Shown in pieces: positions 5,516 through 47,347 of a stretch of 64,000 nucleotides of DNA; position 1 is the stretch's first letter, and every line of letters begins with the position of its first letter. The notes under the pieces were generated by a model. That model did no database searches, was not told the DNA's origin, and worked only from the letters and a program-made list of their open reading frames with translations. Where the stretch lies: contig NZ_JASZYG010000005.1 in NCBI RefSeq assembly GCF_030317105.1, positions 248,001 through 312,000 of the forward strand, given 5' to 3'. The position numbers and the translations under genes were made by a program. This DNA comes from Variovorax brevis. GTDB lineage: Bacteria > Pseudomonadota > Gammaproteobacteria > Burkholderiales > Burkholderiaceae_C.

Positions 5516-6508
5516 TCATTTCTGCGCGAGATCGACCTGCTTTGACAAGGCGCGGTAGCGCGCGGTCTCCGAAGCGATCATCTCTGCCATTTCCTTGCTG
5601 CCGACGGTGTAGACCTCGGCGCCTGCCGTCTCGGTGACGTAGGTCTTGAACTCCGGTTGCGCCATCGCCTTGAGCAGCGCAGTTTCCAGCGTCTTCACCA
5701 CGGGCTCGGGCGTCTTGGCCGCAACGCCCAGGCCGATCCACACATACAGGTCGTAGTTGGGCTGGCCGCTCTCACGCACCGTGGGCACGTTGGCCAGCTT
5801 GGGGTGGCGCTCCTTGCCGGTCACCGCCAGCGCGCGCACCTTGCCCGAGGCGATCAGCGGCAGCGCACCGCCAACGTCCAATAGCGCCAGGTCCACCTGT
5901 CCGCCCATCAGGTCGGTCTGCACCTGGCCCGGCGTCTTGTAGGGGATGTAGTTGAACTCCACGCCAGCACCCTGCTGCAGCATCAGCGCGCCGATGCGGT
6001 AGTGGTTGCTGTAGCTGGCCATGCTGACGTTCTTGGGCGACTTCTTCGCGGCAGCCATCGCTTCGGCATACGTCTTGTACGGCGACGATGCGCCCGTCAC
6101 CAGCACCGCGGCGCTGCGCAGCATGGTCGCGACGGGGCGCAGGTCTTTCTGCGCGTCATAGGGCAGGCTGTCGTTGATGAGCGGGTTGATGACCATCGAC
6201 GAGGGCGAGAGCATCAGCACGCTGTAGCCGTCCGCCGGCGAAGCCAGCAGGGCCTGTACGGCCAGCACCGCGTCGCCGCCCGGCTTGTTGTCGATGAAGG
6301 TGGACTGTCCCTTGAGTTCCGGCGTGACCAGCTTGGCGACCAGGCGCGTGATGGTGTCCGAGCCGCTGCCCGGGCCCAGCGGCACGATGAAGCGCACGGG
6401 GTGCGAGGGGAAGGGGTCAGCGGCCTGCGCTTGCTGCAAGGGCAGGGCGAAGGTTGCCAGCGCGGTCAGCGCGGCGCTTAGCAGGTGGATGGTCTTGAAG
6501 GTCTTCAT
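5516..6508 (-). CDS. Bug/TctC tripartite tricarboxylate transporter receptor
   Basis: A 330-residue periplasmic solute receptor. The first 32 residues are a signal peptide ending in QAQAA; then comes PVRFIVPLGPGSGSDTITRLVA, the usual Bug N-terminal strand and ligand loop, and DNKPGGDAVLAVQALLASPADGY. Such receptors bind organic acids for TctAB transporters, but no tctA or tctB is nearby, as is common in Comamonadaceae. Its place inside the acyl-CoA operon (23 bases after an acyl-CoA dehydrogenase, 14 before the SDR) suggests that it captures the carboxylic acid degraded by the operon. The start follows from the signal peptide. Confidence 0.93.
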   Translation of the reverse strand: MKTFKTIHLLSAALTALATFALPLQQAQAADPFPSHPVRFIVPLGPGSGSDTITRLVAKLVTPELKGQSTFIDNKPGGDAVLAVQALLASPADGYSVLMLSPSSMVINPLINDSLPYDAQKDLRPVATMLRSAAVLVTGASSPYKTYAEAMAAAKKSPKNVSMASYSNHYRIGALMLQQGAGVEFNYIPYKTPGQVQTDLMGGQVDLALLDVGGALPLIASGKVRALAVTGKERHPKLANVPTVRESGQPNYDLYVWIGLGVAAKTPEPVVKTLETALLKAMAQPEFKTYVTETAGAEVYTVGSKEMAEMIASETARYRALSKQVDLAQK

Positions 6509-10062: not shown

Positions 10063-11202
10063 TCAGAGCTTGCGCGAGATGAGGTCGCGCTGGACTTCAC
10101 TCGTGCCGCCGAACACGCGCGTAATGCGGTAGTCGGTGAAAGCGCGCGCAATCGGGTACTCCAGCATGTAGCCGTAGCCACCGTGCAGCTGCACCATGTC
10201 GTCGATGCACTTCCACAGCGTCTCGGTCGCGAACAACTTGGCGATCGCGGCTTCCTGCACGCTGATACGGCGCGTCATGTGCTCGCCGATGTAGTAGTCG
10301 ACCAGCGTGCGCGCGGCCACCGTCTGCGCCTTGATGTCGGCGAGCTTGAACTTGGTGTTCTGGAAGTCCCACACCGTGCCGTCGAAGGCCTTGCGCTCCT
10401 TCACGTACTCGATGGTCTGCTCCAGCAGGCGCTCGAGCTTGGCCACGGAGTAGACGGCGATGATCAGCCGCTCCTGCGCCAGTTCCTGCATCAGGCAGAC
10501 GAAGCCCTTGTTCTCTTCGCCCAGCAGGTTGTCGACCGGTACGCGCACGTTGTCGAAGAAGAGTTCGGTGGTGTCGGCGGCCGGCTGGCCCACTTTCTCC
10601 AGCTTGCGGCCGCGGCGGAAGCCGGCGCGGTTGGCCTCGACCATGATCAGGCTCACGCCCTTGGAGCCGGCCTTCGGGTCGGTCTTGCAGGCCACCAGCA
10701 CCATGTCGCAGTTCAGGCCGTTGCTGATGAAGGTCTTGCTGCCGTTGATGACGTATTCGTCGCCGTCGCGCACGGCGGTGGTGCGGATCGACTTCAGGTC
10801 GGAGCCGGTGCCGGGTTCGGTCATGGCGATGGCCATGATCGTCTCGCCGCGGCAGATCTTCGGCAGCCAGCGCTGCTTTTGCTCCTCGGTGCCGAAGCGC
10901 ACGATGTAGGGCGCGGTGATGTCCGAGTGCACCGACAGGCTGAAGCCAGAGACGCCCGAGCGATGCAGTTCCTCGGCCAGCACGCAGGAGTGGCCGAAGT
11001 CGCCACCGCCGCCACCGTATTCGCTCGGCACGGTCACGCACAACAGGCCTTCGCGGCCGGCCTTCAGCCAGGTCTCGCGATCGGTGCGGCCAGCCTTGTC
11101 CCATTCGGCCTGGCGCGGCAGGCATTCACGCTCGAAGAACCGGCGCGCGGTGTCGCGCAGCATTTCGTGGTCTTCGCGGTAGACGGTACGGTTGATGTTC
11201 AC
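10063..11202 (-). CDS. acyl-CoA dehydrogenase, first gene of the operon
   Basis: 379 residues with a GTG start at 11202 preceded by AAGGAG at suitable spacing. Signatures: EYGGGGGDFGHSCVLAEEL, AMTEPGTGSDLKSIRT, DGDEYVINGSKTFISNG, YVKERKAFDGTVWDFQNTK, and a terminal RVFGGTSEVQRDLISRKL. It resembles the long-chain/isovaleryl-CoA dehydrogenase branch, because the Glu of YEGT in medium-chain enzymes is Gly here. No short partner adjoins it, so it is probably a homotetramer. It leads the minus-strand operon; its promoter should lie within 11203-11340, where I see no clear sigma-70 boxes. Confidence 0.92.
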   Translation of the reverse strand: MNINRTVYREDHEMLRDTARRFFERECLPRQAEWDKAGRTDRETWLKAGREGLLCVTVPSEYGGGGGDFGHSCVLAEELHRSGVSGFSLSVHSDITAPYIVRFGTEEQKQRWLPKICRGETIMAIAMTEPGTGSDLKSIRTTAVRDGDEYVINGSKTFISNGLNCDMVLVACKTDPKAGSKGVSLIMVEANRAGFRRGRKLEKVGQPAADTTELFFDNVRVPVDNLLGEENKGFVCLMQELAQERLIIAVYSVAKLERLLEQTIEYVKERKAFDGTVWDFQNTKFKLADIKAQTVAARTLVDYYIGEHMTRRISVQEAAIAKLFATETLWKCIDDMVQLHGGYGYMLEYPIARAFTDYRITRVFGGTSEVQRDLISRKL

Positions 11203-11388: not shown

Positions 11389-11643
11389 ATGGCCATGCTC
11401 ACCGTACGCAATATTTCTGACGAAGTGCACCGGGCCCTCCGCGTGCGAGCTGCCCAGCACGGCCAAAGCATGGAGGCCGAGGTGCGAGAGATTCTTGAAT
11501 CCGTCGTCAGCCCGCAGGGGCGGGTGAAGCTTGGCTCGCTGCTTGCCGCCATGGGCCGGCAGGCCAGATTGACCGATGAGGAATTTGTCGTCTTCGAGCA
11601 GGTGCGCGACACGGCTCCCGCCCGTCCGGTGAGCTTCGAATGA
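11389..11643 (+). CDS. fitA: FitA-like ribbon-helix-helix antitoxin
   Basis: An 84-residue protein beginning MAMLTVRNISDEVHRAL, with an RHH fold near residues 1-45 (ending AEVREILESV) and a C-terminal tail that would wrap the PIN toxin (KLGSLLAAMGRQ). It closely follows gonococcal FitA. An in-frame ATG at 11383 exists, but GAGG at 11377-11380 is better spaced for 11389. The gene overlaps the toxin by four bases (ATGA), so synthesis is coupled. As an antitoxin it should neutralise FitB and repress transcription from the palindrome just upstream. Confidence 0.88.
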   Translation: MAMLTVRNISDEVHRALRVRAAQHGQSMEAEVREILESVVSPQGRVKLGSLLAAMGRQARLTDEEFVVFEQVRDTAPARPVSFE

Positions 11644-35621: not shown

Positions 35622-37039
35622 TCACGTGTGGCGGCGAGCGGTGAAGCCGGTTGCGCCCAGGGTGGCCGATGCGCCGGCCAGCGACCGCTGCCAGCGTTGG
35701 GCCAGGTGCAGCAGCGGCACGTCCTGATGCGCGGGCGCGGCGAAGGTCACGCCAAAGGGCAGGCCATCCCGCAGCAAGGAGAAAGGAAGCGCCACGCCTG
35801 CGCAATCGAGCAGGTTCATGAAGTTGGTGTACAGGCCGAGCTGGCTGTTGAGGCGGACCGGCTCTTCCAGCATGGCCGCAATGCCCGGGTGGGAGGGCAC
35901 GGTCGGCAGCAGCAGCACATCGACGCTGCGCCAGGTTTTCCCGCATTGCCGCTGAAGCGCGCGCAGCTGGTAGAAGGCGGCAAAAGCGTCGGCCGCCAGC
36001 GGCTTGGCGCCGCCGAGCGTGATCTCGCGCGTGACCGGAAACACGGCTTGCGGCTGCGTGTCGATGAAGTCGCGGATGGCCTGGTAGCGCTCGGCGACCC
36101 ATGGACCTTCGTACAGCAGCCGTGCGGCTTCGAGAAAAGGCGCGAAATCGATGGTGGTGATTTCCGCGCCCAGCTGGCGGGCGTGATCGCAGGCCGCGTC
36201 GAAGGCTTGTGCGTAGCCAGGCTGGAAGAACTGCAGTTGATCCGCCGCAGGCACGCCGAGGCGAAAGCGTGTGGCGCTGCCGAAATCAACGCCGTGGGCT
36301 TGCGCGGGCCGCGCGTACGAATCCGCTTCGTCGTAAGCCTTGGCCACCTTGAACACGCGATGCGCATCCGCGGCCGTCAAGGCAAAGATCGAGGGTGTGT
36401 CGAGCGAGCGGCAGGCCGGCACCACGCCCGTGGTCGACAGCAGCCCGCAGGTCGGCTTCAGGCCTACGAGGTGGTTGAAGGCAGCGGGCACGCGGCCTGA
36501 GCCTGCCGTGTCGGTGCCCAGCGCGAAGCTGACCTGGCCCAAAGCAACAGCCACCGCCGAGCCGAGCTGGAGCCACCCGACACGCGCGCCGAATCGAAGG
36601 CGTTGAGGCAGGCGCCGTAGGGCGAGCGCGTGCCGTTCAGGCCGGTCGCGAACTGGTCCAGGTTGGTCTTGCCGACGGCGATGGCGCCGGCGTCGAGCAA
36701 CTGTTGGACGACGAAGGCACTGGCGGGCGGCAGGTAGGCATAGTCGGGGCAACCGGCGGTGGTGGGCACGCCGGCCAGGTCGATGTTGTCCTTGATGGCG
36801 AACGGGATGCCGTACAGGGGCAGGCCTGCGGGCCCACGTTCCTGCAAGGCGCTGGCGCGTGCGCGCAGTGCGCGGGCGTCGATGCGGTGGATCCAGGCAT
36901 GGTGCGTGTCCACCTCCGTCGCCGCGATGACAGCCTCGATCACGTCGAGCGGCGTGCGCGTGCCTTTGCGGTAGTCGGCCTGCAGGCTGGCAATTTCCAG
37001 CGAGAAGCCGACACGATGAATGGGGACGCGCGCGTTCAC
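35622..37039 (-). pseudogene. atzF: allophanate hydrolase (amidase-signature), frameshifted and lacking the C-terminal domain
   Basis: Start is GTG at 37039, overlapping the carboxylase stop by four bases. N-terminal frame: GFSLEIASLQADYRKG, catalytic Lys in IPFAIKDNIDLAG, then RVSGGSSS. At about 36563 one base seems missing (a G on the coding strand, where GSSSGSAVAV is expected), and the rest continues in another frame with the nucleophile Ser in TDTAGSGR. Restored, the protein is about 472 residues, an amidase domain only; typical AtzF is near 600 with a C-terminal domain. Allophanate hydrolase turns allophanate into ammonia and CO2, the last step of guanidine or urea-carboxylase pathways. 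The shift may be real or a sequencing error. Confidence 0.85.
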
Positions 37040-40000
37040 GCAGCCAACTCCGCGGCAATCCGGTCTTCTTCGGCGCGTGCGGTCGAAGGATCGGTTGCGG
37101 GCATCAGCACCACCACCTCTTGTCCGGCCCCGACTGCTGCGCCTTCGGTGCAGCGCACGCTGTGCACACGGCCTGTAAAGGGCGCCGTCACTGCGAATTC
37201 CATCTTCATGGATTCGACGACCACCAGCGTGTCGCCTTGCGCCACGACGTCGCCTTGATGCACCGCGACCTTCCAGACGCTGCCGGGGACCTGGCTGCAA
37301 ATGGCGCTGGCACCCTCGGGCAGGTCGAGCGCGTCATCTGCAGGCGTGGTGAGTGAAGCTTCGTCCACGTATTCGGCCTGCCCCTGCACGCGCCAGCGCT
37401 CGCGTTCGGCCTCGAAGGCCAGCTGTTGCGTGGTCTTGAAGCTGGCGATGTCTTCTGCGTTGCCATCCAGAAACTCGCGGTACTCGCGCATGCTGAATTC
37501 GCCCGGTTCGATGCGCACCGGGTAGCGGCCCGCGGGGAAATCGCTGCGGATGCGCAGCAGCTCTTCCTCACCGACCGGGTAGAAGCGGATCTGGTCGAAG
37601 AAGCGCAGCAGCCAGGGCTTGCCTGCTTCGAAGGCGGCGGCGCCGCTGGACGCATCGCGCCAGCGGTTCCACATCTGCAGCGTGCGCCCGACGAACTGGT
37701 AGCCGCCGGGGCCTTCCATCCCGTAAACGCACATGTAGGCCCCGCCGATGCCCACCGCGTTCTCCGGTGTCCAGGTGCGCGCCGGGTTGTACTTGGTGGT
37801 GACGAGGCGATGACGCGGATCGACCGGCGTGGCGACCGGTGCGCCGAGGTATACGTCGCCCAGGCCGAGCACGAGGTAGCGCGCGTCGAACACGATGCGG
37901 TGCACGTCCTCGATGCTGTCCAGCCCGTTCATGCGGCGGATGAACTCGATGTTGCTCGGGCACCAGGGCGCGTCGGGGCGCACCGATTGCATGTACTTGT
38001 CGATGGCCAGCCTGGTTGCGCTGTCGTCCCACGAGAGCGGCAGGTACACGGTGCGCGAAGGCACGGTCAGGTCGTCGGTGTCGCCGAATTCGTCGTCGGC
38101 CAAGGCAATGGCGTCGATCAACGCGGCGCGATCGACGCGGCGCGGGTCATAGTGCAGCTGCAGCGATCGGATGCCCGGCGTGAGGTCGATGATGCCGTCG
38201 ATGCCTTGGGCTTGCAGGGCAGCGTGCAGTGAATGGATGCGCATGCGCAGCGCGATGTCGAGTTGCAACTCGCCGAGTTCGACCAGCAAATAGCGGTCGC
38301 CGGCCTGCCGCACGACCAACGCGGGGCGGCCCGTGGAGGCTTCGCGCTCGAAGACGACCGGCGATGCGAGGTGCGACGCATCCTGCGCGCGGCCCACGAA
38401 AGCGGGTGCCGCCGGCGCCTGCAGTTCGTGGACCCAACGGTCCTGCGCATCCTGCAGCGCCAGCGCCTCGGCTTGCGATACGCAGCGAAAGCGCACGCTG
38501 TCACCGGGACGCAGTTGCCCCAGCTTCCAGCGCTCGGCCGCCACCACCACCGCAGGGCAAACGAAGCCACCGAGGCTCGGACCATCGGGGCCGAGGATCA
38601 CGGGCATGTCGCCGGTGAAGTCGATCGCGCCGATGGCGTAGGCGTTGTCATGGATGTTCGACGGGTGCAGGCCCGCCTCGCCGCCATCGCGACGCGCCCA
38701 GGTGGGCTTGGGGCCGATGAGTCGCACGCCGGTGCGGCTCGAGTTGTAGTGCACCTCCCAGGGCGTGTCGAAGAAGGTCGCGATGTCGCCGTCGGTGAAG
38801 AAGTCGGGCGCGCCATGCGGGCCGTACAGCACGCCGATTTCCCATGGCGTGGCGCCTTGCGCGTAGGTCGGCACTGCGGCGGCGTCGAGCGTGAGGTGCG
38901 CAGGCGCAAGCGCCTGCTCGCCGACGTGCAGCATGTCTCCGGTGCGCAGCGTGCGGCCGCCGTGGCCGCCGAATTGGCCCAGCGTGAAGGTGGAGCGACT
39001 GCCGAGATAGGCCGGCACGTCGATGCCGCCGCGCACGGCCAGGTAGGCGCGGCTGCCGCCCGTCGATTCGACTGCGCCGATTTTCAGGACGCTGCCGGCT
39101 TTCACGTGCGTGGCCTGCCAGAGGCGCACCGGTTGCGCGTCGAGCGTGACGCGCATCGCCGCGCCACACACCGCGATCACGGCGTCGTGGTGAAAGCGAA
39201 GGGTCGGGCCGCTCATCGTGCATTCGAGGCCGGCGGCGTCGCTGTCATTGCCGACGATGCGGTTCGCCAGGCGGAATGCGAGGTCATCCATGGGACCGGA
39301 GGGCGGCACGCCGACGTCCCAATAGCCTTGGCGGCCGGGCCAGTCCTGCACGGTGGTCTGCACGCCCGCTTCGAGCACTTCAAAGGCCTTGGGCTGGTAG
39401 CTGAAGTCGGCCAGCGATCGCGTGACGATGCGGCCTTCGACGAAATCCGCCGATGCGGAGATGGCGCGCAGGTAGCGCAGGTTGGTCTCGATGCCCGCCA
39501 GCCGCGTGCTCGCCAGCGCGGCTTGCAACTTTTGCACGGCATCGGCCCGGTCGCGTCCGGTGACGATCAGCTTGGCGATCATCGGGTCGTAGTTGGGCGG
39601 CACTTCACTGCCGGTGGCGACCCAGGTCTCGATGCGTGTGTCGTCGGGGAAGGCCACTTCGGTCAGGCGTCCGGCGCTCGGCTGGAAGTTGCGTGCCGGG
39701 TCTTCGGCGTAGAGGCGCACCTGGATCGAGGCGCCTTGCGCTTCGGGTGCAGACAGCGCAAAAGACTCGCCGCGTGCAAGCCGAACCATCCAGCCCACGA
39801 GGTCGATGCCGGTGACCTGTTCGGTGACGCCATGCTCCACTTGCAGGCGGGTGTTGACTTCCAGGAAGTAGAAGGCCTGCGTGTCGGCGTCGAGCACGAA
39901 TTCCACCGTGCCGGCGGAGCGGTACGACACTGCCTTGCCCAGCCGAACCGCCGCATCCAGCATCGCCGTGCGCGTTGCCGCATCGAGGTGCGGCGCTGGG

Positions 40001-40722
40001 GTTTCTTCAACGACCTTCTGGTTGCGACGCTGCGCCGAGCAGTCGCGCTCTCCCAGCGCGATGACATGGCCTGCGCCGTCGCCGAACACCTGCACTTCGA
40101 TGTGCCGCGCGCGCTCGACGAACTTTTCGAGGAAGAGGCCCGCGTCCTTGAAGTTGGCTTGCGCCAGGCGCTGCACCGCTTCGAAGGCAGGCGCCAGTTC
40201 GGCTGCGTCACGCACCAGCCGCATGCCGATGCCGCCGCCGCCGGCCGTGCTCTTGAGCATCACCGGGTAGCCGATGCGCTCGGCTTCGGAAAGGGCAGAG
40301 CCGAGGTCAGCCAGCAGTCCGCTGCCCGGCAGCAAGGGCACGCCATGTTCTTCAGCGAGCGCACGCGCCGTGTGCTTGAGGCCGAAGGCGAGCATTTGTT
40401 GCGCGGTCGGCCCGATGAAGGCGATGCCCGCGGCTTCGCAGGCCTGCGCAAAGCCGGGGTTTTCGGAGAGGAAACCGTAGCCCGGATGAATGGCGCCGGC
40501 ACCCGTGTCGCGCGCCACCGCCAGGATGCGATCCGCGTCGAGGTAGCTCTGCGCCGCCGGCGCCGGGCCGATGCACACGGCCTCGTCGGCCTGCTGCACG
40601 TGCGCGGAATCGGCGTCCGCTTCCGAGTACACCGCAACGGATTTCAGGCCGAGCGCACGAAGCGTACGGATGATGCGGCACGCGATCGCGCCACGATTGG
40701 CGATCAATACTTTGTCGAACAT
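37036..40722 (-). CDS. biotin-dependent guanidine/urea carboxylase
   Basis: 1228 residues. Biotin carboxylase part ([20 protein letters not shown]-grasp [17 protein letters not shown]) to about 450; then AHS2/KipA-like ([18 protein letters not shown]), AHS1/KipI-like ([28 protein letters not shown], about 1000-1030) and a C-terminal biotinyl domain with biotin Lys1173 (ESMKMEF). It carboxylates urea or guanidine with ATP and bicarbonate. Annotated widely as urea carboxylase, but the ykkC riboswitch and two deiminase-type partners argue for guanidine, giving carboxyguanidine. An Asp-to-Asn change has been reported to separate the two activities; I cannot place it here. Start ATG 40722 is canonical; an in-frame ATG 48 bases earlier exists. 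Confidence 0.9.
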
Positions 40723-40818
40723 GATGTGAAGAACCTCGTTGGCGAGTCGTCCCGCCAGTTGTTCATGCATGCCGGGGTCGTCCCCGGCACGGCGCCTCGT
40801 TGCGAGGCGCGTGGTCCG

Positions 40819-41463
40819 CTAATCCCAGATCAGCAACTCGGCCGGGGTCGGGTTGTACGCATTGCAGGGGTTGTTCAACTGCGGGCAGTTGGAGATCAAC
40901 ACCAGCACGTCCATCTCCGCCAGCAACTCGACGTATTTCTGCGGCGCGGAAATGCCATCGGCAAAGGTGAGGCCACCTTCGGGCGTCACCGGCACGTTCA
41001 TGAAGAAGTTGATGTTGGCGCCGATCTCGCGCTTGCCCAGGCGCGTGTCGTGCGCGCAGGCCCGCAGGAAGTTGTCGCGGCAGCTGTGCATGTAGCGCTT
41101 GCCGAGGGCATAGCGCACGCTGTTGCTCTCCTGCGCGCAGGCGCCGCCGAGGGTGTCGTGCCGGCCGCAGGTGTCGGCGACGACGGTCAGCATGCGATTG
41201 CCCTGGTTCGAATACAGGACCGTGCCCGTCGTGATGTAGAGGCTCTTTTGCCGGCGCAAGGTGCGCTGCGCGTCGAAGCGTTCGCTGCGGTCGTGCAGGT
41301 TGAAGAAAAGCGTGTCCACCGCCTGGTTGCCTTCGAGGTCGAGGATGCGCAGTGTCTGGCCGGCCTTGAGTTCCTTCACCCACGGCTCGCCGGCGGCAAC
41401 GGTTTCGCGGAACACGGCCGTCTCGGGCGTGCGGGGGCTGGCAGTCAGTTGTGTTGTCGTCAT
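40819..41463 (-). CDS. carboxyguanidine deiminase subunit (urea amidolyase-associated protein UAAP2 type)
   Basis: 214 residues of the DUF1989-like family once named urea amidolyase-associated. Signatures are [38 protein letters not shown] (Cys and His metal or active-site set), [18 protein letters not shown] and [18 protein letters not shown]. Related pairs form a heteromeric enzyme (CgaA/CgaB) that deiminates carboxyguanidine to allophanate and ammonia. It ends 96 bases before the carboxylase start, the largest gap in this operon, and starts eight bases after the sister subunit stop. Which of CgaA or CgaB it equals I cannot say. Start ATG 41463 after GAGG. Confidence 0.88.
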
Positions 41464-41471
41464 GTCGGGCC

Positions 41472-42176
41472 TCACAGGTAAAGGCGGTCGGTGTTGATGA
41501 AGCCGCGCTGGTTCTCCTCGCAGGACAGGCGGCAGATCTCGGCCACGGAGGCGTCGGCGCGCTCCAGTTGCATGCGAACCGGCTTGGGCGCATACACGTC
41601 GCTGGGGTCCAGCGGGTGCTGGATCGCGGTGAGCACGATCAGCGTGTCCATGGGCGCATAAAGCTCGACCAGATCGCCGGCCTTCGAGTTGCCGGACGAG
41701 AAACGGAAGCCGCCGTCCTCGCGCACGTCCACGCGGCTGAAGAGGTTGAGCGTCATCTGCAGGTCCGAGATGTTCAGGCCCCACTTGCCCATCTCGACCA
41801 GCAGGTTGTCCTGCCCGTTGCGATGGAATCCGTTGCGCAGTTCCTGGTAGCGGCCGTGGCCGTACTGCACTTCGACCTCGGCCGCATCCGATACGCCGCC
41901 GATCGGGTCATGCCAGCCGCAGGTGTCGCGCACGATGGCGGCCAGCACGCGGCCCATGTCGGAGTAGAGGCAATGGCCAGCGGTGAGCTTCGCCGTGTGC
42001 TGGCACTTGAGCGTGTCGGGCAGGTTGAGGCGCTCGCTCTTCTCGTGAGCGTTGAGCATCAGCAGGCTGACGTTGGCTCCCCCCTCGATGTCGGTGATGC
42101 GCAGCGACTGGCCGCGCTTGACGATGAGCGAGGTGTGTCCGCCGCCCGGGATGGTTTCTTCAAGCAATGACGACAT
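41472..42176 (-). CDS. carboxyguanidine deiminase subunit (urea amidolyase-associated protein UAAP1 type)
   Basis: 234 residues, paralogous to the downstream gene. It has [41 protein letters not shown] with the same Cys-x-x-His, [18 protein letters not shown] and [27 protein letters not shown]. In guanidine assimilation the two proteins act together on carboxyguanidine to give allophanate. It overlaps the ABC ATPase gene by 17 bases and precedes its sister by eight. The start ATG 42176 has GGGA upstream. The pair's presence is the enzymatic reason to prefer guanidine over urea as the pathway substrate, since urea carboxylation alone would not need a deiminase. Confidence 0.88.
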
Positions 42177-42981
42177 GGAGGTTCCCTTGTTCGATGTTGT
42201 GGGCGGGCCGTGGCAGCCCTCGCTCGATGGCGGCTTTCGCGAGCGACAACTGGCCGTTGGCGTCGCCACCACGGTCCAGCGGAATGTCGTAGGTGATGCG
42301 TGCGCCGTACGCGCCCGGCGCCTGCGGATCGATGCGGCACTTGTCGAAGACCAGCATGCGGCTGCCCAGCGCGAAGCCTTCCTTGAGGTCGTGCGTGACC
42401 ATGAAAATGGTCAGCCCGGTCTCGCGCCAGAGGCCCAGCAGCAACTCGTGCATGTCGCGCCGCACGCCGGGGTCCAGCGCGCCGAAAGGCTCGTCGAGCA
42501 GCAGGATGCGCGGCTTGGTGATGAGCGCTTGCGCAATCGCCAGCCGCTGCTGCATGCCGCCCGACAACTGGCTCGGGTACTTGTGCAGCGACGCACCAAG
42601 GCCCACGCGCTCCAGCATCGCCACCGCTTCGTCCCGCGCGGCCTTGCGCTTGGCACCGAAGAGCTTGCCGACGAAGGGCGACGCCGGCAGTTCCAGGCCG
42701 ATCATCACGTTGCGCAGAACATCCAGATGCTCGAACACCGAGTATCGCTGGAACACCACGCCGCGGTGCCGGTCCGGCTCCGAGGGCAGGGCCTTGCCGT
42801 CCAGCAGGATGCTTCCCTTGCTGCATTGCTCCTGCCCCAGCAGCAGCCGCAGGAAGGTGGACTTGCCGCAGCCCGAGGCGCCGACCATCGAGCAGAACTC
42901 GCCTTCCTTCACCGTGAGGTTCAGCCGCTCCAGCACGACCTGGTCGTCGTAGCTTTTCCAGACGTTGCGTACTTCAAGCAT
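42160..42981 (-). CDS. ABC transporter ATPase, guanidine/urea-type uptake system
   Basis: 273 residues of a nitrate/taurine-type ABC ATPase. Walker A GASGCGKST at 34-42, Q-loop GVVFQRYSVF, signature LSGGMQQR, Walker B ILLLDEPFGALD and H-loop MVTHDLKEGF are all present, so it should hydrolyse ATP. Residues after about 215 form a short extra C-terminal region (PQAPGAYGARITYDIPLDRG) common in the copies linked to these operons. It overlaps the permease by eight bases and the next gene by 17. Supplies guanidine or a related cation in the proposed pathway. Confidence 0.93.
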   Translation of the reverse strand: MLEVRNVWKSYDDQVVLERLNLTVKEGEFCSMVGASGCGKSTFLRLLLGQEQCSKGSILLDGKALPSEPDRHRGVVFQRYSVFEHLDVLRNVMIGLELPASPFVGKLFGAKRKAARDEAVAMLERVGLGASLHKYPSQLSGGMQQRLAIAQALITKPRILLLDEPFGALDPGVRRDMHELLLGLWRETGLTIFMVTHDLKEGFALGSRMLVFDKCRIDPQAPGAYGARITYDIPLDRGGDANGQLSLAKAAIERGLPRPAHNIEQGNLHVVIA

Positions 42982-43792
42982 GGCGTGCTCCTCCGAACCA
43001 CGGAAAGGCGCGCTTCGTGATGAAGGCCAGCGCCAGGTCCATGAGCCAGGCGAGCAGGGTGATCCACACCACGTAGGGCAGGATCACGTCCATCGCCAGG
43101 TAGCGCCGCACCAGGAAGATCCGGTAGCCCAGGCCGTCGGTGGACGCAATCGCTTCCGCGGCGATCAGGAAGAGCCATGCCGAGCCCAGCGACAGGCGCA
43201 GCGCGACCAGCAGGCGCGGCACCAGTTGCGGCACGATCACGCGCAGGATCAGCGTCCAGCTGTTGGCGCCCAGCGTCTGCGCTTTCACCCACACCTCGCG
43301 CGGGATCTCGTTGGCACGCTGCTGCAGGTCGCGCACCATCACCGGCGTGATGCCGATGACGATGAGCACCACCTTCGACAGTTCATCGAGCCCGAACACG
43401 ATGAACAGGATCGGCAGCACCGCCAGCGGCGGGATCATCGAGATCACCGTCACGAAGGGCGAGAAGCTGGCCGCGAAGAACGGAAAGCTGCCCAGCAGGA
43501 TGCCCGCGACAAGCGCCAGCACCGCACTGACGGCCAGCCCGATGCCCAGGCGCTTCAGGCTCGCCCCGGTGTCGACCCACAGCAGGTAGTCGCCGGTGCG
43601 CTTGTCCTCGGTGAAGGCGTACTGGTGGATGGCTTCCGTCATCTGCACCGCACTGGGCAGCAGCTTGTCGTCGGGGTTGTCCGCCAGCCGCGCCGTCGAC
43701 CCGAGGAAGTAGACGGCCAGGAGAATGACGAACGGCATCAGCAGGAGGAACACGGCGTTCCCTCGACCGGGTCGTCGATTGATGAGGCGCAT
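42974..43792 (-). CDS. ABC transporter permease, guanidine/urea-type uptake system
   Basis: 272 residues with about six hydrophobic segments (PFVILLAVYFLGS near the N-terminus). The EAA-like ATPase contact appears as LQQRANEIPREVWVKAQTLGA followed by LRVIVPQLVPRLLVALRLSLGSAWLFLIAAE. The family is the binding-protein-dependent permease of nitrate, sulfonate and taurine systems. It lies 36 bases after the substrate-binding gene and overlaps the ATPase gene. Substrate is deduced from the operon and riboswitch only. Confidence 0.92.
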   Translation of the reverse strand: MRLINRRPGRGNAVFLLLMPFVILLAVYFLGSTARLADNPDDKLLPSAVQMTEAIHQYAFTEDKRTGDYLLWVDTGASLKRLGIGLAVSAVLALVAGILLGSFPFFAASFSPFVTVISMIPPLAVLPILFIVFGLDELSKVVLIVIGITPVMVRDLQQRANEIPREVWVKAQTLGANSWTLILRVIVPQLVPRLLVALRLSLGSAWLFLIAAEAIASTDGLGYRIFLVRRYLAMDVILPYVVWITLLAWLMDLALAFITKRAFPWFGGARHA

Positions 43793-43828
43793 GGCGCAGG
43801 CCCTCGCGGTTGCGTTGTTGGAATCGGT

Positions 43829-44905
43829 TTAGAGCTTGCCTTCGGCCGCCATGCGGACGTAGCTCTGGTCGAAGCGCAGCTTGAGGTTGTTCTTGTTGCC
43901 CACGACGGCGCCGCCGTCGAAGGCCATGCCGATGGCATCGGGGCTCTTCACGCCCTGGCCGAGAATGCCGTGGTCGAAGGAGAACTTCGCGACGCGGCTC
44001 ATGATCTTGGGCATGTCGGGGCTGGTCGCGAACTTCAGCGCCGCTTGCGGCGTGTAGAAGAGGGCGGTGGTCGACAGCTGTGCCTTGAAGCCCGCGAGGT
44101 CGGTGCCCGAGGCCTTGGCCATCGCGGTGAGGGACCTGGTCGCGCGATCGTCCTTGGCGGTCATGACCGACATCATCTCGAACCACGCGCCCGTCAGCGC
44201 CTTGCCGAAGTTGGGGTTGTCGTTGAGCGTCTTCGTGTTGACGACCATCATGTCCATCAGCTCGCCGGGCAACTGGTGCGAGGTGTAGACCAGCGATGCG
44301 TCCTGCCCGTCGGCCAGCGTGGAGAGCATCGGGTTCCACGTCACCGCATTCTTCACCGAAGGCGTGGCAAAGGCCGCCACGATGTCGGCGTCACTGGTGT
44401 TGACCACCTTGATGTCGCGTTCGCTCATGCCCACCGATTCGAGTGCGCGCGCCAGGAAGTAGTGCGACACCGAGAACTCGACCAGGTTCACCGTCTGGCC
44501 CTTGAGGTCCTGCAGCTTCTTGTTCTTGCCCTTGATGACGATGCCGTCGTTGCCGTCGGAATAGTCGGCCACGATGATGGCGGTCGAGTCGACGCCGCCG
44601 GCGGCCGGGATGGTCAGCGCATCCATGTTGGCCATGGCGCAGCCGTCGAACTTGCCCGCGGTGTACTGGTTGATCGACTCCACATAGTCGTTGAGTTGCA
44701 CGACGCTGATGTTGACGCCGTACTTCTTGCCCCACTTCGCGAAGATGCCCTGCGCCTGCGCTTCGGCCCAGGGCATGAAGCCGGCATAGATGGAGGAGCA
44801 CACCTTGAAGTCGGTGCGCGGCGCTGCTGCGACTGCGGATTGCAGGCAGGCCAGGGTGGCGAGGCACAGCGTCGCGCTGCTGATGAATCTGGAAAGCTTT
44901 GACAC
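43829..44905 (-). CDS. ABC transporter substrate-binding protein, guanidine/urea-type
   Basis: 358 residues. GTG start at 44905 with GAGGATC upstream. A signal peptide of about 27 residues ends VAAAPRT. The mature part has VCSSIYAGFMPWAEAQAQGIFAKWGKKYGVNISVVQLNDYVESINQYTAGKFDG, like NMT1/THI5-type periplasmic receptors of nitrate or taurine ABC systems; MDALTIPAAGG and ALTGAWFEMMSVM follow. First gene behind the guanidine-I riboswitch and terminator. It probably delivers guanidine or a guanidine-bearing compound. Confidence 0.92.
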   Translation of the reverse strand: MSKLSRFISSATLCLATLACLQSAVAAAPRTDFKVCSSIYAGFMPWAEAQAQGIFAKWGKKYGVNISVVQLNDYVESINQYTAGKFDGCAMANMDALTIPAAGGVDSTAIIVADYSDGNDGIVIKGKNKKLQDLKGQTVNLVEFSVSHYFLARALESVGMSERDIKVVNTSDADIVAAFATPSVKNAVTWNPMLSTLADGQDASLVYTSHQLPGELMDMMVVNTKTLNDNPNFGKALTGAWFEMMSVMTAKDDRATRSLTAMAKASGTDLAGFKAQLSTTALFYTPQAALKFATSPDMPKIMSRVAKFSFDHGILGQGVKSPDAIGMAFDGGAVVGNKNNLKLRFDQSYVRMAAEGKL

Positions 44906-44929
44906 GTTGGATCCTCAAGTAGGGTGAAA

Positions 44930-44984
44930 CAGAAAAGCCCGGGAGCGGCGCGGTCTTGCGATCGCGTCCATCTCCCGGGCTTTT
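44930..44984 (-). terminator. riboswitch-controlled intrinsic terminator of the guanidine operon
   Basis: On the minus strand AAAAGCCCGGGAG (44984-44972) pairs perfectly over 13 bases with CTCCCGGGCTTTT (44945-44933), followed by CTGTTT. The left arm is also the conserved 3' end of the guanidine-I aptamer. Ligand binding should hold the arm in the aptamer and let transcription continue, so guanidine turns the operon on. Confidence 0.88.
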
Positions 44985-45069
44985 GTCCCGCCGTGTAACC
45001 CCTACCGAGGTCGACAGCTCTCGGACCAGCGTTCGCCTGGTCAGCGAACCGGAACCCTAGCCATCCATT
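44969..45069 (-). promoter_or_regulatory. guanidine-I (ykkC) riboswitch aptamer
   Basis: The minus strand carries the ykkC core in order: GCTAGGGTTCCGG (45063-45051), a hairpin GTTCGC/GCGAAC, TGGTCCGAGAGC, and the 3' core ACACGGCGGGAC then AAAAGCCCGGGAGA. Those blocks match the guanidine-I consensus nearly base for base. It lies 64 bases before the substrate-binding gene and overlaps the terminator. Bound guanidinium should block the terminator and raise expression of transporter, carboxylase, deiminase and hydrolase genes. Confidence 0.93.
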
Positions 45070-45119
45070 TGCAAATTGTGCGTGTCAACCGGTTTGTCGC
45101 CGGCTCCCGCAATGGTTGC

Positions 45120-45136
45120 AGCAGGAGTCGTGCCAA
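45120..45136 (-). promoter_or_regulatory. candidate sigma-54 (-24/-12) promoter for the guanidine operon
   Basis: TTGGCACGACTCCTGCT on the minus strand matches the RpoN consensus YTGGCACGRNNNTTGCW except one base, with GG and GC ten bases apart. Transcription would start near 45110, about 45 bases before the riboswitch. It would place the operon under nitrogen control with an NtrC-like activator. A TTGACA at 45088-45083 exists, but its -10 partner is weak. Confidence 0.6.
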
Positions 45137-45285
45137 CTATTGGATGGGTCTGGAGCGGGGTTCGGTGCGTGCGTTGCCCCCGATTGGTGCTGGGCGAGCC
45201 GCGGCGTCACGAACTTGGTGCGACGAAGCGCATCAACGGCAGGCCTGAAATCTGCTTTTGTCTTCGCTCTCTCGCGCGATGCGAG

Positions 45286-45342
45286 CCAGGACGACTTGGG
45301 CCTTTTGTACTCACGCAAAAGGCAGACATGCTGGACGGCCAG
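45286..45342 (+). promoter_or_regulatory. candidate guanidine-II (mini-ykkC) riboswitch before the oxygenase gene
   Basis: Two hairpins carry the ACGR tetraloop that defines mini-ykkC RNAs: CCAGG-ACGA-CTTGG (45286-45299, one G-U pair) and CTGG-ACGG-CCAG (45331-45342). Between them lies an 8-bp hairpin (45300-45307 with 45316-45323). The second ACGR hairpin ends 13 bases before the AAGGAG site of the oxygenase. CCTTTTGT at 45301-45308 can also pair with ACAAAGG at 45353-45359 and so hide the ribosome site. Guanidine-II riboswitches act at translation in this way. Confidence 0.7.
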
Positions 45343-45368
45343 ACACTCATCAACAAAGGAGCTTCACA

Positions 45369-46409
45369 GTGTCGGGACCCAGCAGAAAACACACCGCCTT
45401 CCAGGCCTTGCCGGTGGTGGACATCACCAGCCTCCATTCCCCCCATCTGCACGAACGCCAGCAGGCCGCCGACCAGCTCGGCCAAGCCGCACGCGATGCG
45501 GGCTTCTTCTATCTCACGGGCCATCGCGTCAGCGAGTGCAGCATCGAGGCACTCATCGAACGCGCGAAGGCCTACTTCGCGCAGCCGCATGAAGTGAAGA
45601 TGCGCAACTACATCGGCGAATCGACCAACCACAGCGGCTACGTGCCGGAAGGCGAAGAGCGCTTCAGCGAGAACGTGATCGACCGCAAGGAAGCGTACGA
45701 CGTCGGCTTTGACCATGAGTCGGTGGAAGGACGCAGGCCGCTGCTGGGGCCCAACCGCTGGCCCGAGATGCCCGGCTTCAGGGAGGACGTCAGCGCCTAC
45801 TACAAGGAAGTGCTGGCCCTGAGCAAGCTGCTGTTCCGCGGCTTTGCACTCGCGCTCGGCGTGGAAGAAGACCGCCTGGTGCGCCACGTGAACCAGCCGC
45901 CGAGCCAACTGCGTTTGATCCACTACCCCTTCGACGAAGTGCCGAAGGGCGAAGGGCAAGGCATCGGCTCGCACACCGACTACGAGTGCTTCACCATCTT
46001 GCTGCCGACCGCGCCGGGGCTGGAAGTCATCAACGGGGCGGGCGAATGGATTTCCGTGCCGGTGATGCCGGGCGCCTTCGTCATCAACATCGGCGACATG
46101 CTCGAAGTGCTGTCCAACGGCGCCTTCGTGGCCACGCGCCATCGCGTGCGCAAGGTGCCGCAAGAGCGCTATTCCTTTCCGCTCTTCTGCGCCTGCGACT
46201 ACGACACCGTCATCGAACCCATCGTGCCGCGCGCTGCGCAGGACGGCCCGAGCCCCTACACGCCGTTGAATTGCGGCGACCACATCTACGCGCAAACGCA
46301 GCAGACCTTCACCTACCTCAAGCAACGCATCGCACGCGGCGAGCTGAAGCTGCCCGAGGGCGCGCGCACGGTGGACAGCTTCGGCCGCAAGGCAGAGGTG
46401 GTGCTGTGA
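45369..46409 (+). CDS. 2-oxoglutarate/Fe(II)-dependent oxygenase (isopenicillin-N-synthase family)
   Basis: 346 residues from a GTG at 45369 with AAGGAG seven bases upstream. N-terminal DIOX_N part LPVVDITSL..ARDAGFFYLTGHRV; double-stranded beta-helix with iron ligands His202 and Asp204 (GSHTDYECFTILLPT) and His258 (ATRHRV), and the 2-oxoglutarate Arg267-x-Ser269 (ERYSFPLF). All catalytic residues are intact. The family includes ethylene-forming enzyme, which releases guanidine from arginine, but identity here cannot be claimed. It leads a plus-strand unit behind the candidate guanidine-II riboswitch and is head to head with the guanidine operon. I infer hydroxylation of an N-substituted guanidine. 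The next gene overlaps by one base. Confidence 0.9.
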   Translation: MSGPSRKHTAFQALPVVDITSLHSPHLHERQQAADQLGQAARDAGFFYLTGHRVSECSIEALIERAKAYFAQPHEVKMRNYIGESTNHSGYVPEGEERFSENVIDRKEAYDVGFDHESVEGRRPLLGPNRWPEMPGFREDVSAYYKEVLALSKLLFRGFALALGVEEDRLVRHVNQPPSQLRLIHYPFDEVPKGEGQGIGSHTDYECFTILLPTAPGLEVINGAGEWISVPVMPGAFVINIGDMLEVLSNGAFVATRHRVRKVPQERYSFPLFCACDYDTVIEPIVPRAAQDGPSPYTPLNCGDHIYAQTQQTFTYLKQRIARGELKLPEGARTVDSFGRKAEVVL

Positions 46410-47347
46410 TGCACTTGCTCGAACTCATCGAGCGCCACCCGCGCCGTCCGGCGCAACAAGTGCCCGAGTGGATGATGGGCCTGTATCGCCGTCACTGCAT
46501 CGCCTTTGCCGATGGCAGCAGCGACATCGAGACGCAGGTGTTCTGGCTGCAGAGCCGAAATTTCTCGATCGACCTTCGCCTGCCGCGCAATGACGGGTTG
46601 GTCGCGTTGGCAAAGCCGTGGGCGGCGTATTCGAAGGCCGAACTGGAAGTGCTCGGCAACTACGAGGGATGGGTTGCCGAATCGGTATGGGATGGCGCGC
46701 AACTCGTGTGGCGCGAACCCACTGCCCTGCAGCTGCACGATCGCTGGCCCGAGCCGGCGCCCTTGCAGCGCGTTGGCAACTGCATGGTCGAGTTCGCGCC
46801 GAGCGGTGCGTACGTCGAGGATTGGCGCCTGCAGCCTTCGGCGCCCGGTCCGCTGGTGGGCCTGCGCCTGCTGGAAGAGAAGGAGATGGGCACCGGCCGC
46901 GTGCTGCACCGCGGCGGCGGCCTCATCGTCAGCGGCAAGCACGCGGGGCTTGTGCTCGGGCGCGTGGAGCCACCCGCCGGGCAGGGTTCATTCCTCGAAC
47001 AGGTGCTGACGGCCGCAGGCAACGAGCAGGGCTTGCGTGGCCTGTTCAACTTCGAAACTTCCATCGCCCGCGGCTCCGTGCAGGACGGTTTCATCACCAC
47101 GCATTCGACGCTGCCCGGTCGTGTGGGGCAGCCGGTCTTCGCGCTCGATGGCTTCAGCGTGGACGCCGACGGCATCGTGCATCAGTTGGTGAAGCGCGGC
47201 GGCATCACGTGCGAGCGCCGCTTCGAAGTCGATGTGATCAAGGCCGGCATGGCATGGCCGCAGTCCACTGCGCAAACGGATTCGGCACGCGACTGGCGAC
47301 ATCGCGAATCGGCCACGCTCGGCCGCTACACGCATTCATTGATCTGA
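46409..47347 (+). CDS. conserved hypothetical protein of the oxygenase operon
   Basis: 312 residues; the ATG at 46409 shares one base with the oxygenase stop (TGATG), so translation is coupled. No domain recognised. The sequence is rich in aromatic and acidic residues. LRLLEEKEMGTGRVLHRGGGLIVSGKHAGLVLGRVEPPAGQ in the middle and GFSVDADGIVHQLVKRGG near the end look like beta-sheet barrels of the lipocalin type, but that is only an impression. No signal peptide. Its place suggests a protein working with the oxygenase on the same guanidine-related compound. Confidence 0.72.
   Translation: MHLLELIERHPRRPAQQVPEWMMGLYRRHCIAFADGSSDIETQVFWLQSRNFSIDLRLPRNDGLVALAKPWAAYSKAELEVLGNYEGWVAESVWDGAQLVWREPTALQLHDRWPEPAPLQRVGNCMVEFAPSGAYVEDWRLQPSAPGPLVGLRLLEEKEMGTGRVLHRGGGLIVSGKHAGLVLGRVEPPAGQGSFLEQVLTAAGNEQGLRGLFNFETSIARGSVQDGFITTHSTLPGRVGQPVFALDGFSVDADGIVHQLVKRGGITCERRFEVDVIKAGMAWPQSTAQTDSARDWRHRESATLGRYTHSLI

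Follow-up and report, generated by a model that had tools for sequence, protein, structure and literature searches.

According to the main text of Sinn et al. (2025, PMC12508155), MgdH hydroxylates methylguanidine and MgdL accelerates the breakdown of the product to guanidine and formaldehyde. In the V. boliviensis gca operon described there, mgdH and mgdL are internal genes, positioned between gca and atzF. The riboswitches of V. boliviensis differ in ligand range: guanidine-II binds guanidine and methylguanidine alike, with apparent KD values of 93 µM and 83 µM, respectively, whereas guanidine-I binds guanidine (44 µM) and not methylguanidine at up to 1 mM. Regulation by two guanidine riboswitch classes together, each with its own ligand range, is named in the same text as a subject for further study. 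The binding of methylguanidine as well as guanidine by guanidine-II is also given in the main text of PMC5486947, and in the crystal structures of the class, as described there, the ACGR loops and G-C closing pairs hold guanidine, with the two hairpins arranged head to head. The linker between the hairpins is stated to be 7-40 nt long in this class (PMC7544219, main text).

We analysed a stretch of 64,000 nucleotides from Variovorax brevis, here called the window. By homology, it holds the genes of the V. boliviensis gca operon as presented in the main text of PMC12508155, namely gca, cgdA/B, mgdH, mgdL, an ABC importer and an amidase, together with the same two riboswitch classes, guanidine-I and guanidine-II (Table 1). 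The difference is that mgdH-mgdL of the window are transcribed divergently and are preceded by a separate leader. This leader, 45283-45371, probably (about 0.83) serves the two genes as a translational ON switch and belongs to a divergent form of guanidine-II (mini-ykkC type).

Table 1. Genes and RNA elements of the guanidine/methylguanidine locus, in window coordinates
Feature	Position	Strand	Basis or detail
Amidase, likely allophanate hydrolase	35622-37058	-	PF01425
Urea/guanidine carboxylase (gca)	37036-40722	-	TIGR02712, 1908 bits; start at 40722, after the riboswitch
Canonical guanidine-II riboswitch upstream of gca	40742-40789	-	RF01068, 43.6 bits
UAAP2 / DUF1989, likely second deiminase subunit	40819-41784	-	TIGR03424, 330 bits, residues 123-320
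UAAP1 / DUF1989, likely carboxyguanidine deiminase subunit, start uncertain	41472-42272	-	TIGR03425, 321 bits; PF09347
ABC transporter ATPase	42160-42981	-	
ABC transporter permease	42974-43792	-	
ABC transporter substrate-binding protein	43829-44905	-	TIGR03427
Intrinsic terminator (AAAAGCCCGGGAG / CTCCCGGGCTTTT), overlapping the guanidine-I 3' end	44933-44984	-	Fold
Guanidine-I riboswitch of the divergent operon	44970-45071	-	RF00442, 86.5 bits (cut-off 63)
P1 hairpin CCAGG-ACGA-CTTGG	45286-45299	+	5 pairs, ACGA loop 45291-45294; covariation among relatives
Linker hairpin, directly 3' of P1	45300-45323	+	Folding: 9 pairs, one closing U-G
Linker tail, 7 nt, between linker hairpin and P2	45324-45330	+	
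P2 hairpin CTGG-ACGG-CCAG	45331-45342	+	4 pairs, ACGG loop 45335-45338; covariation among relatives
P3, GACACT 45342-45347 with AGTGTC 45368-45373	45342-45373	+	Folding
Shine-Dalgarno AAGGAG	45356-45361	+	Sequence
mgdH homologue, 2OG-Fe(II) oxygenase, likely methylguanidine hydroxylase	45369-46409	+	Pfam DIOX_N, 2OG-FeII_Oxy
mgdL homologue, likely N-(hydroxymethyl)guanidine lyase	46409-47347	+	Profile homology

The guanidine operon and the divergent mgdH-mgdL genes

The two divergent coding starts are separated by 463 bases, and a sigma-70 promoter scan of this intergenic region found none. The facing operon had been assigned to guanidine-I control in the original prediction, and a guanidine-I is present there, with an RF00442 score above the cut-off and a terminator that overlaps the aptamer. 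The terminator region folds with -37.5 kcal/mol (44986 to 44918) and was not listed by a simple scan with a loop limit of 8. This guanidine-I (RF00442), encoded on the opposite strand of the intergenic region, is a separate aptamer driving the other operon. The UAAP2 coordinates are those of the open reading frame as listed, the true start being further in. Since the guanidine-I and the canonical guanidine-II pass Rfam and the mgdH leader fails, we describe the locus as two riboswitches and one candidate.

The oxygenase of the window is 55-57% identical to the Vreelandella/Halomonas homologues of loci L080, L082 and L076, with the HxD, H and RxS residues kept. In these three loci the gene is located downstream of gca, in agreement with the description of mgdH in V. 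boliviensis, and the likeness to MgdH is read through them rather than from the published protein A0A265DXP8 itself. The tblastn scores to the three were 377-386 bits; the nearest solved structure to MgdH was that of an ethylene-forming enzyme, at 160 bits. For MgdL, comparison by hhalign with the ORFs that follow mgdH in L080, L082, L076, L067, L042 and L086, with Vreelandella among the six, gave a probability of 99.0 and an E value of 6.3e-18, a likeness read through those ORFs rather than from the published protein A0A265DXW6 itself. The window MgdL had no match in Pfam or NCBIfam at E up to 1e-5 and no sequence relative among solved structures at E up to 1, and tblastn with it at 1e-8 missed the Vreelandella ORF after mgdH. 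By analogy with the described pair, the window MgdH/MgdL would convert methylguanidine to guanidine.

A homologue of mgdH at E up to 1e-60 was present in one of 61 genomes, the window's own, 36 of the others being of the same genus. The substrate-binding protein of the cassette (35622-47347) was found at E up to 1e-100 in one of 61 genus genomes, which was again its own. This rarity in the genus suggests that the guanidine/methylguanidine cassette was gained by transfer. The GC content of the cassette per 2 kb is 62.6-68.6%, lowest at 44-46 kb. In a plasmid collection, oxygenase homologues of 49-56% identity occurred on 8 of 72,556 records, including two filed as Klebsiella pneumoniae, one of which has 5.4 Mb and is likely a chromosome.

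Twin-hairpin leaders before mgdH homologues

The two ACGR hairpins that had been predicted just before the ribosome site of the oxygenase were found as P1 and P2, the oxygenase starting with the GTG at 45369. Both loops are of the ACGR type with G-C closing pairs, and the element adjoins the ribosome site of a guanidine-metabolism gene, as is characteristic of the guanidine-II class. The P1-P2 linker of 31 nt is within the length range given for this class. A hairpin between P1 and P2 had also been predicted and is present, with nine pairs upon folding instead of the eight originally counted. Its folding energy is -12.7 kcal/mol, and none of 200 shuffles was equally low.

The homologue set was the best 80 of at least 486 confirmed from a scan of named genomes, making 81 leaders with the window, so that the results describe nearer relatives only. 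Under a fixed rule that takes two ACGR loops, each with at least four pairs, twin hairpins precede 50 of the 81 homologues, and the count is the same when a spacing limit of 20-95 is added. With the spacing-limit rule, the pattern arose by chance in 4 of 16,200 dinucleotide shuffles of the leaders; among 7,032 windows drawn at random from these loci it was present in 31, with the qualification that genuine gca riboswitches may lie in some of those windows. The hairpins of the original prediction are thus kept among relatives. L043, whose P1 has three pairs, is the 51st twin leader by model R1 (40.3 bits; see below). The carriers belong to Variovorax, Pseudomonas, Stutzerimonas, Gilvimarinus, Marinobacter, Microbulbifer, Thalassolituus and Halieaceae, with one acidobacterial MAG. 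On the MgdH tree the twin-leader label is clustered, needing 6 changes as compared with 24.5 when shuffled, a figure helped by near copies. The remaining 30 of the 81 homologues have no twin, and in the 20 of these scanned with R1 the mgdH start was unmatched. In four halophile loci (L067, L076, L080 and L082) mgdH lies downstream of gca and the twin leader is absent.

Compensating changes in the leaders of relatives, as had been proposed for a check, are present in both stems. After near copies were dropped, the rows for P1 came from 24 and those for P2 from 27 of 50 leaders, 23 and 25 of them distinct. For P1, 91.3% of the cells were paired and five of six pairs changed on both sides; for P2, the values were 90.0% and three of six. 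The covariation in each stem exceeded all 500 shuffles, with the caveat that kinship between rows can give such an excess even where there is no structure. The inner four stem pairs belonged to the selection rule and the fifth did not; this fifth pair was formed in 23 of 23 rows of P1 and 21 of 25 rows of P2, with five pair types each. A sixth pair was present in roughly half of them (11/23 in P1, 14/25 in P2). When the partner strand was slid, the covariation score fell from 0.397 to at most 0.161 for P1 and from 0.269 to at most 0.131 for P2. The motifs are short and the Rfam score is weak, as a chance resemblance would have it; set against the shuffle counts, the covariation and the clustering on the MgdH tree, such a coincidence is extremely improbable. 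P1 with the following GCCTTTTG was picked out as terminator-like by a simple scan (2 found, 0.6 expected), which would suit a transcriptional attenuator or a protein-binding site with no ligand-binding RNA. The other twin leaders, however, have no such T-rich tail after P1, and the conserved part consists of the ACGR loops and G-C closing pairs that hold guanidine in the crystal structures (PMC5486947, main text), making this explanation very improbable.

The covariance-model check with RF01068 formally failed, with 10.8 bits at the window leader (E 5.7) against a gathering cut-off of 32 bits, and six other sites of its own genome scored 14-18 bits, above the window leader. The cut-off was missed at the mgdH leader in the window and in all 14 twin-leader loci scanned. 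Sub-threshold matches fell exactly at the mgdH leaders in three of five loci scanned (L010, 29.3 bits; L028, 24.9 bits; L035, 21.7 bits). With its score below the cut-off, the site is assigned to a divergent subtype, presumed to function in the manner of the class, and not to RF01068 membership.

R1, a model of the leaders, was trained on 26 sequences out of the 51, excluding the window, L009, L014, L016, L018, L020, L029 and L043 plus 17 near copies. R1 matched the window leader with 20 bits (E 3.5e-4, 64 kb searched), second to the gca guanidine-II at 23.4 bits. Over the whole own genome, the window leader came first among the matches listed (E 0.046), the next scoring 17.9 and 17.6 bits, and the gca guanidine-II site was absent from the matches listed. 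Among the loci kept from training, L043, L016, L014, L009 and L020 matched at E of 6.2e-6 or lower and L018 and L029 weakly; L009, the nearest relative, reached 29.3 bits (E 4e-6). The 43 other leaders scanned (26 training, 17 near copies) scored 41-73 bits. Across 369 genomes of the class, R1 gave 19 matches, of which three precede gca, one (L097) is a canonical guanidine-II site and the remaining 15 show, by eye, one clear hairpin each; tblastn found no mgdH in these 19 loci of about 3 kb each. The L097 site (1501-1577; G211:C43:64279-64355, minus; L127 in the canonical set) is a guanidine-II of 38.6 bits just before an ORF that, read from the letters, resembles a fatty-acid desaturase.

The low scores of the window in both models, also as compared with L009 and the leaders elsewhere, together with a G-U pair in its P1, would be in keeping with a decayed copy, that is, a real family whose member in the window, owing to its weak P1, has lost the ability to switch. 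The two loops and the two stems are nevertheless intact in the window. Variovorax sp. OV329 (L009) is the nearest relative; its genes between gca and mgdL have the same layout, and its oxygenase is 82-83% identical in protein sequence. The G-U pair of the window P1 is A-U in L009, a one-sided change that keeps the stem, and the linker hairpin differs in sequence and keeps its form. These observations argue against decay, which we consider improbable.

As compared with RF01068 guanidine-II, the mgdH leaders have in common the two ACGR-loop hairpins, the G-C closing pairs and the adjacent ribosome site of a guanidine gene, and they differ in the P2 core and in a shorter or hairpin-bearing linker. 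The P2 core CTGG/CCAG (CUGG/CCAG in RNA) was present in 48 of 50 mgdH leaders and in none of 24 readable canonical sites, a contrast that may be exaggerated because the canonical set was picked by the Rfam model. That set held 27 of 30 RF01068 loci (34 matches) after the three weakest were dropped, two of the 27 being just under the cut-off, and 24 were readable by the same rule. The P1 core CGGG/CCCG occurs in 45 of 50 mgdH leaders, and that of the window departs from it. Measured in the same manner, the linkers are 12-13 nt in 17, 20-33 nt in 29 and 60-79 nt in 4 of the 50 mgdH leaders, whereas those of the 24 readable canonical sites are 16-19 nt, with one of 23 nt. In the count that gives 31 nt for the window, the four long linkers have 57-78 nt. 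The 23 dereplicated linkers of 20-33 nt folded with a mean of -8.1 kcal/mol as compared with -4.0 kcal/mol when shuffled, 13 of them at 0.05 or lower. In 21 of the 23 the linker hairpin begins 0-1 nt downstream of P1, and the tail is 7-10 nt in 21. In our reading, the hairpin may stand in for a portion of the tether and leave P1 and P2 able to make the head-to-head contact of the crystal structures. Taken at the level of sequence, these features support the placement of the mgdH leaders as a divergent guanidine-II subtype below the current Rfam cut-off.

The candidate expression platform

Two kinds of platform have been put forward in the main texts of earlier work. For Gloeobacter, the proposal was a stem-loop that overlaps both P2 and the ribosome site and is exclusive of P2 (PMC5486947), and a putative anti-Shine-Dalgarno was placed in the linker, following the model of Reiss and Strobel (PMC9094411). 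Both were considered for the mgdH leaders.

In the window, P3 encloses the Shine-Dalgarno site, pairs the GTG start and has base 45342 in common with P2. In 29 dereplicated leaders, the P3 strands paired with a mean of -10.1 kcal/mol as compared with -7.4 kcal/mol when swapped between leaders (sd 0.43), and none of 20,000 swaps was as low; P3 reached -8 kcal/mol or lower in 23 of the 29 and was weaker in 6. The overlap of P3 with the 3' arm of P2 is one base in the window and more where P2 is longer. In the free RNA, the formation of P1 and P2 requires 0.2-12.6 kcal/mol, and P3 should therefore win without ligand.

The unpaired probability of the Shine-Dalgarno showed no effect upon forming P1 and P2, the mean going from 0.31 to 0.30, up in 9 and down in 11 of the 29 leaders. 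The opening energy of the start region, a second measure that was computed after this result, fell from 11.2 to 7.5 kcal/mol upon P1 and P2 formation, with a drop of more than 0.3 in 27 of 29. In the 26 leaders left when L014, L018 and L029 were dropped, the decrease was 3.6 kcal/mol as compared with 1.0 kcal/mol in shuffled spacers. Leader by leader, it beat the shuffles at 0.05 or lower in 10 of 26; the window showed a drop of 5.7 kcal/mol versus 0.8 kcal/mol shuffled (0.03), and the value for the nearest relative L009 was 0.50. Upon P1 and P2 formation in the window, the Shine-Dalgarno went from 0.80 to 0.56 unpaired and the start codon from 0.00 to 0.58. Apart from the unpaired probability of the Shine-Dalgarno, these folding calculations make hairpin P3, overlapping both P2 and the ribosome site, the likely platform.

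In the original prediction, one arm of the linker hairpin could also cover AAGGAG. The pairing of this 5' arm with the Shine-Dalgarno region is indeed possible in the window, at -9.0 kcal/mol, and reaches -9.5 kcal/mol in L010 and L011; a guanidine-II-type element that agrees with our main reading in all but the platform, with the linker arm in that role, would account for it. Across the family, on the other hand, there is no indication of co-variation. The own pairs of 23 leaders were no better than swapped ones (-6.61 versus -6.32 kcal/mol, 4,318 of 20,000 as low), and the linker arm was rejected as an anti-Shine-Dalgarno. The pairing is also -3.2 kcal/mol in L009, and the linker hairpin of the window is itself stronger than the pairing of its arm with the Shine-Dalgarno. 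A linker platform is thus unlikely, and P3 is retained in the mechanism below.

Recurrence of the arrangement and implications for methylguanidine metabolism

Two guanidine classes within one intergenic region of about 460 bases had been thought striking. They are present, and the arrangement is recurrent rather than unique: with a guanidine-I model of 16 sequences (R2), guanidine-I was located on the other strand in 24 of the 51 twin leaders, 212-879 nt before the modelled leader and within 340 nt in 22. The presence of a guanidine-II-type element opposite the guanidine-I operon, the core of the original prediction, is supported by the leader conservation and the compensating changes. The other 27 twin leaders include Pseudomonas loci in which mgdH, mgdL and the substrate-binding protein are consecutive, with no gca in flanks of up to 6 kb.

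Other combinations of these elements were observed. In 12 Paraburkholderia/Trinickia loci (L046, L048, L051, L054, L062, L063, L065, L069, L071, L072, L073 and L075), mgdH has no twin leader and lies between two guanidine-I copies, one per strand; tblastn with the window MgdL gave no match in these loci. Pseudomonas chengduensis L044 and similar loci hold three guanidine-I within about 6 kb (5564-5661, 10109-10209 and 11495-11612), one canonical guanidine-II and the mgdH leader.

From sequence comparison, an RNA of the guanidine-II type very probably controls the two enzymes of methylguanidine demethylation. We infer the ligand (guanidine or methylguanidine), the direction of the switch and the enzyme activity in this organism, and propose the following mechanism. 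Without ligand, the strand just 3' of P2 would pair with the Shine-Dalgarno/start region as P3, lowering translation. Binding of guanidine or methylguanidine would join the loops of P1 and P2 and fix P2, upon which the overlapping P3 would be broken and the start freed. MgdH and MgdL would then convert methylguanidine to guanidine, and degradation of this guanidine would fall to the divergent operon, controlled by guanidine-I and an internal guanidine-II.

It is conceivable, though doubtful, that the mgdH leaders, recognisable by their almost constant P2 core and their short or structured linker, constitute a separate specificity class related to guanidine-II and tuned to methylguanidine, the substrate, with the facing guanidine-I reading only guanidine, the product. 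If so, one intergenic region would measure both ends of the demethylation step.

In the literature examined, covering parts of main texts, we found no guanidine-II element directly before mgdH, and within that coverage the gene association with mgdH is apparently new to the guanidine-II class. The class that accepts methylguanidine would stand alone, in several genera, before genes with methylguanidine-consuming homologues. The question of joint control by two guanidine classes may thereby become testable in culturable strains.
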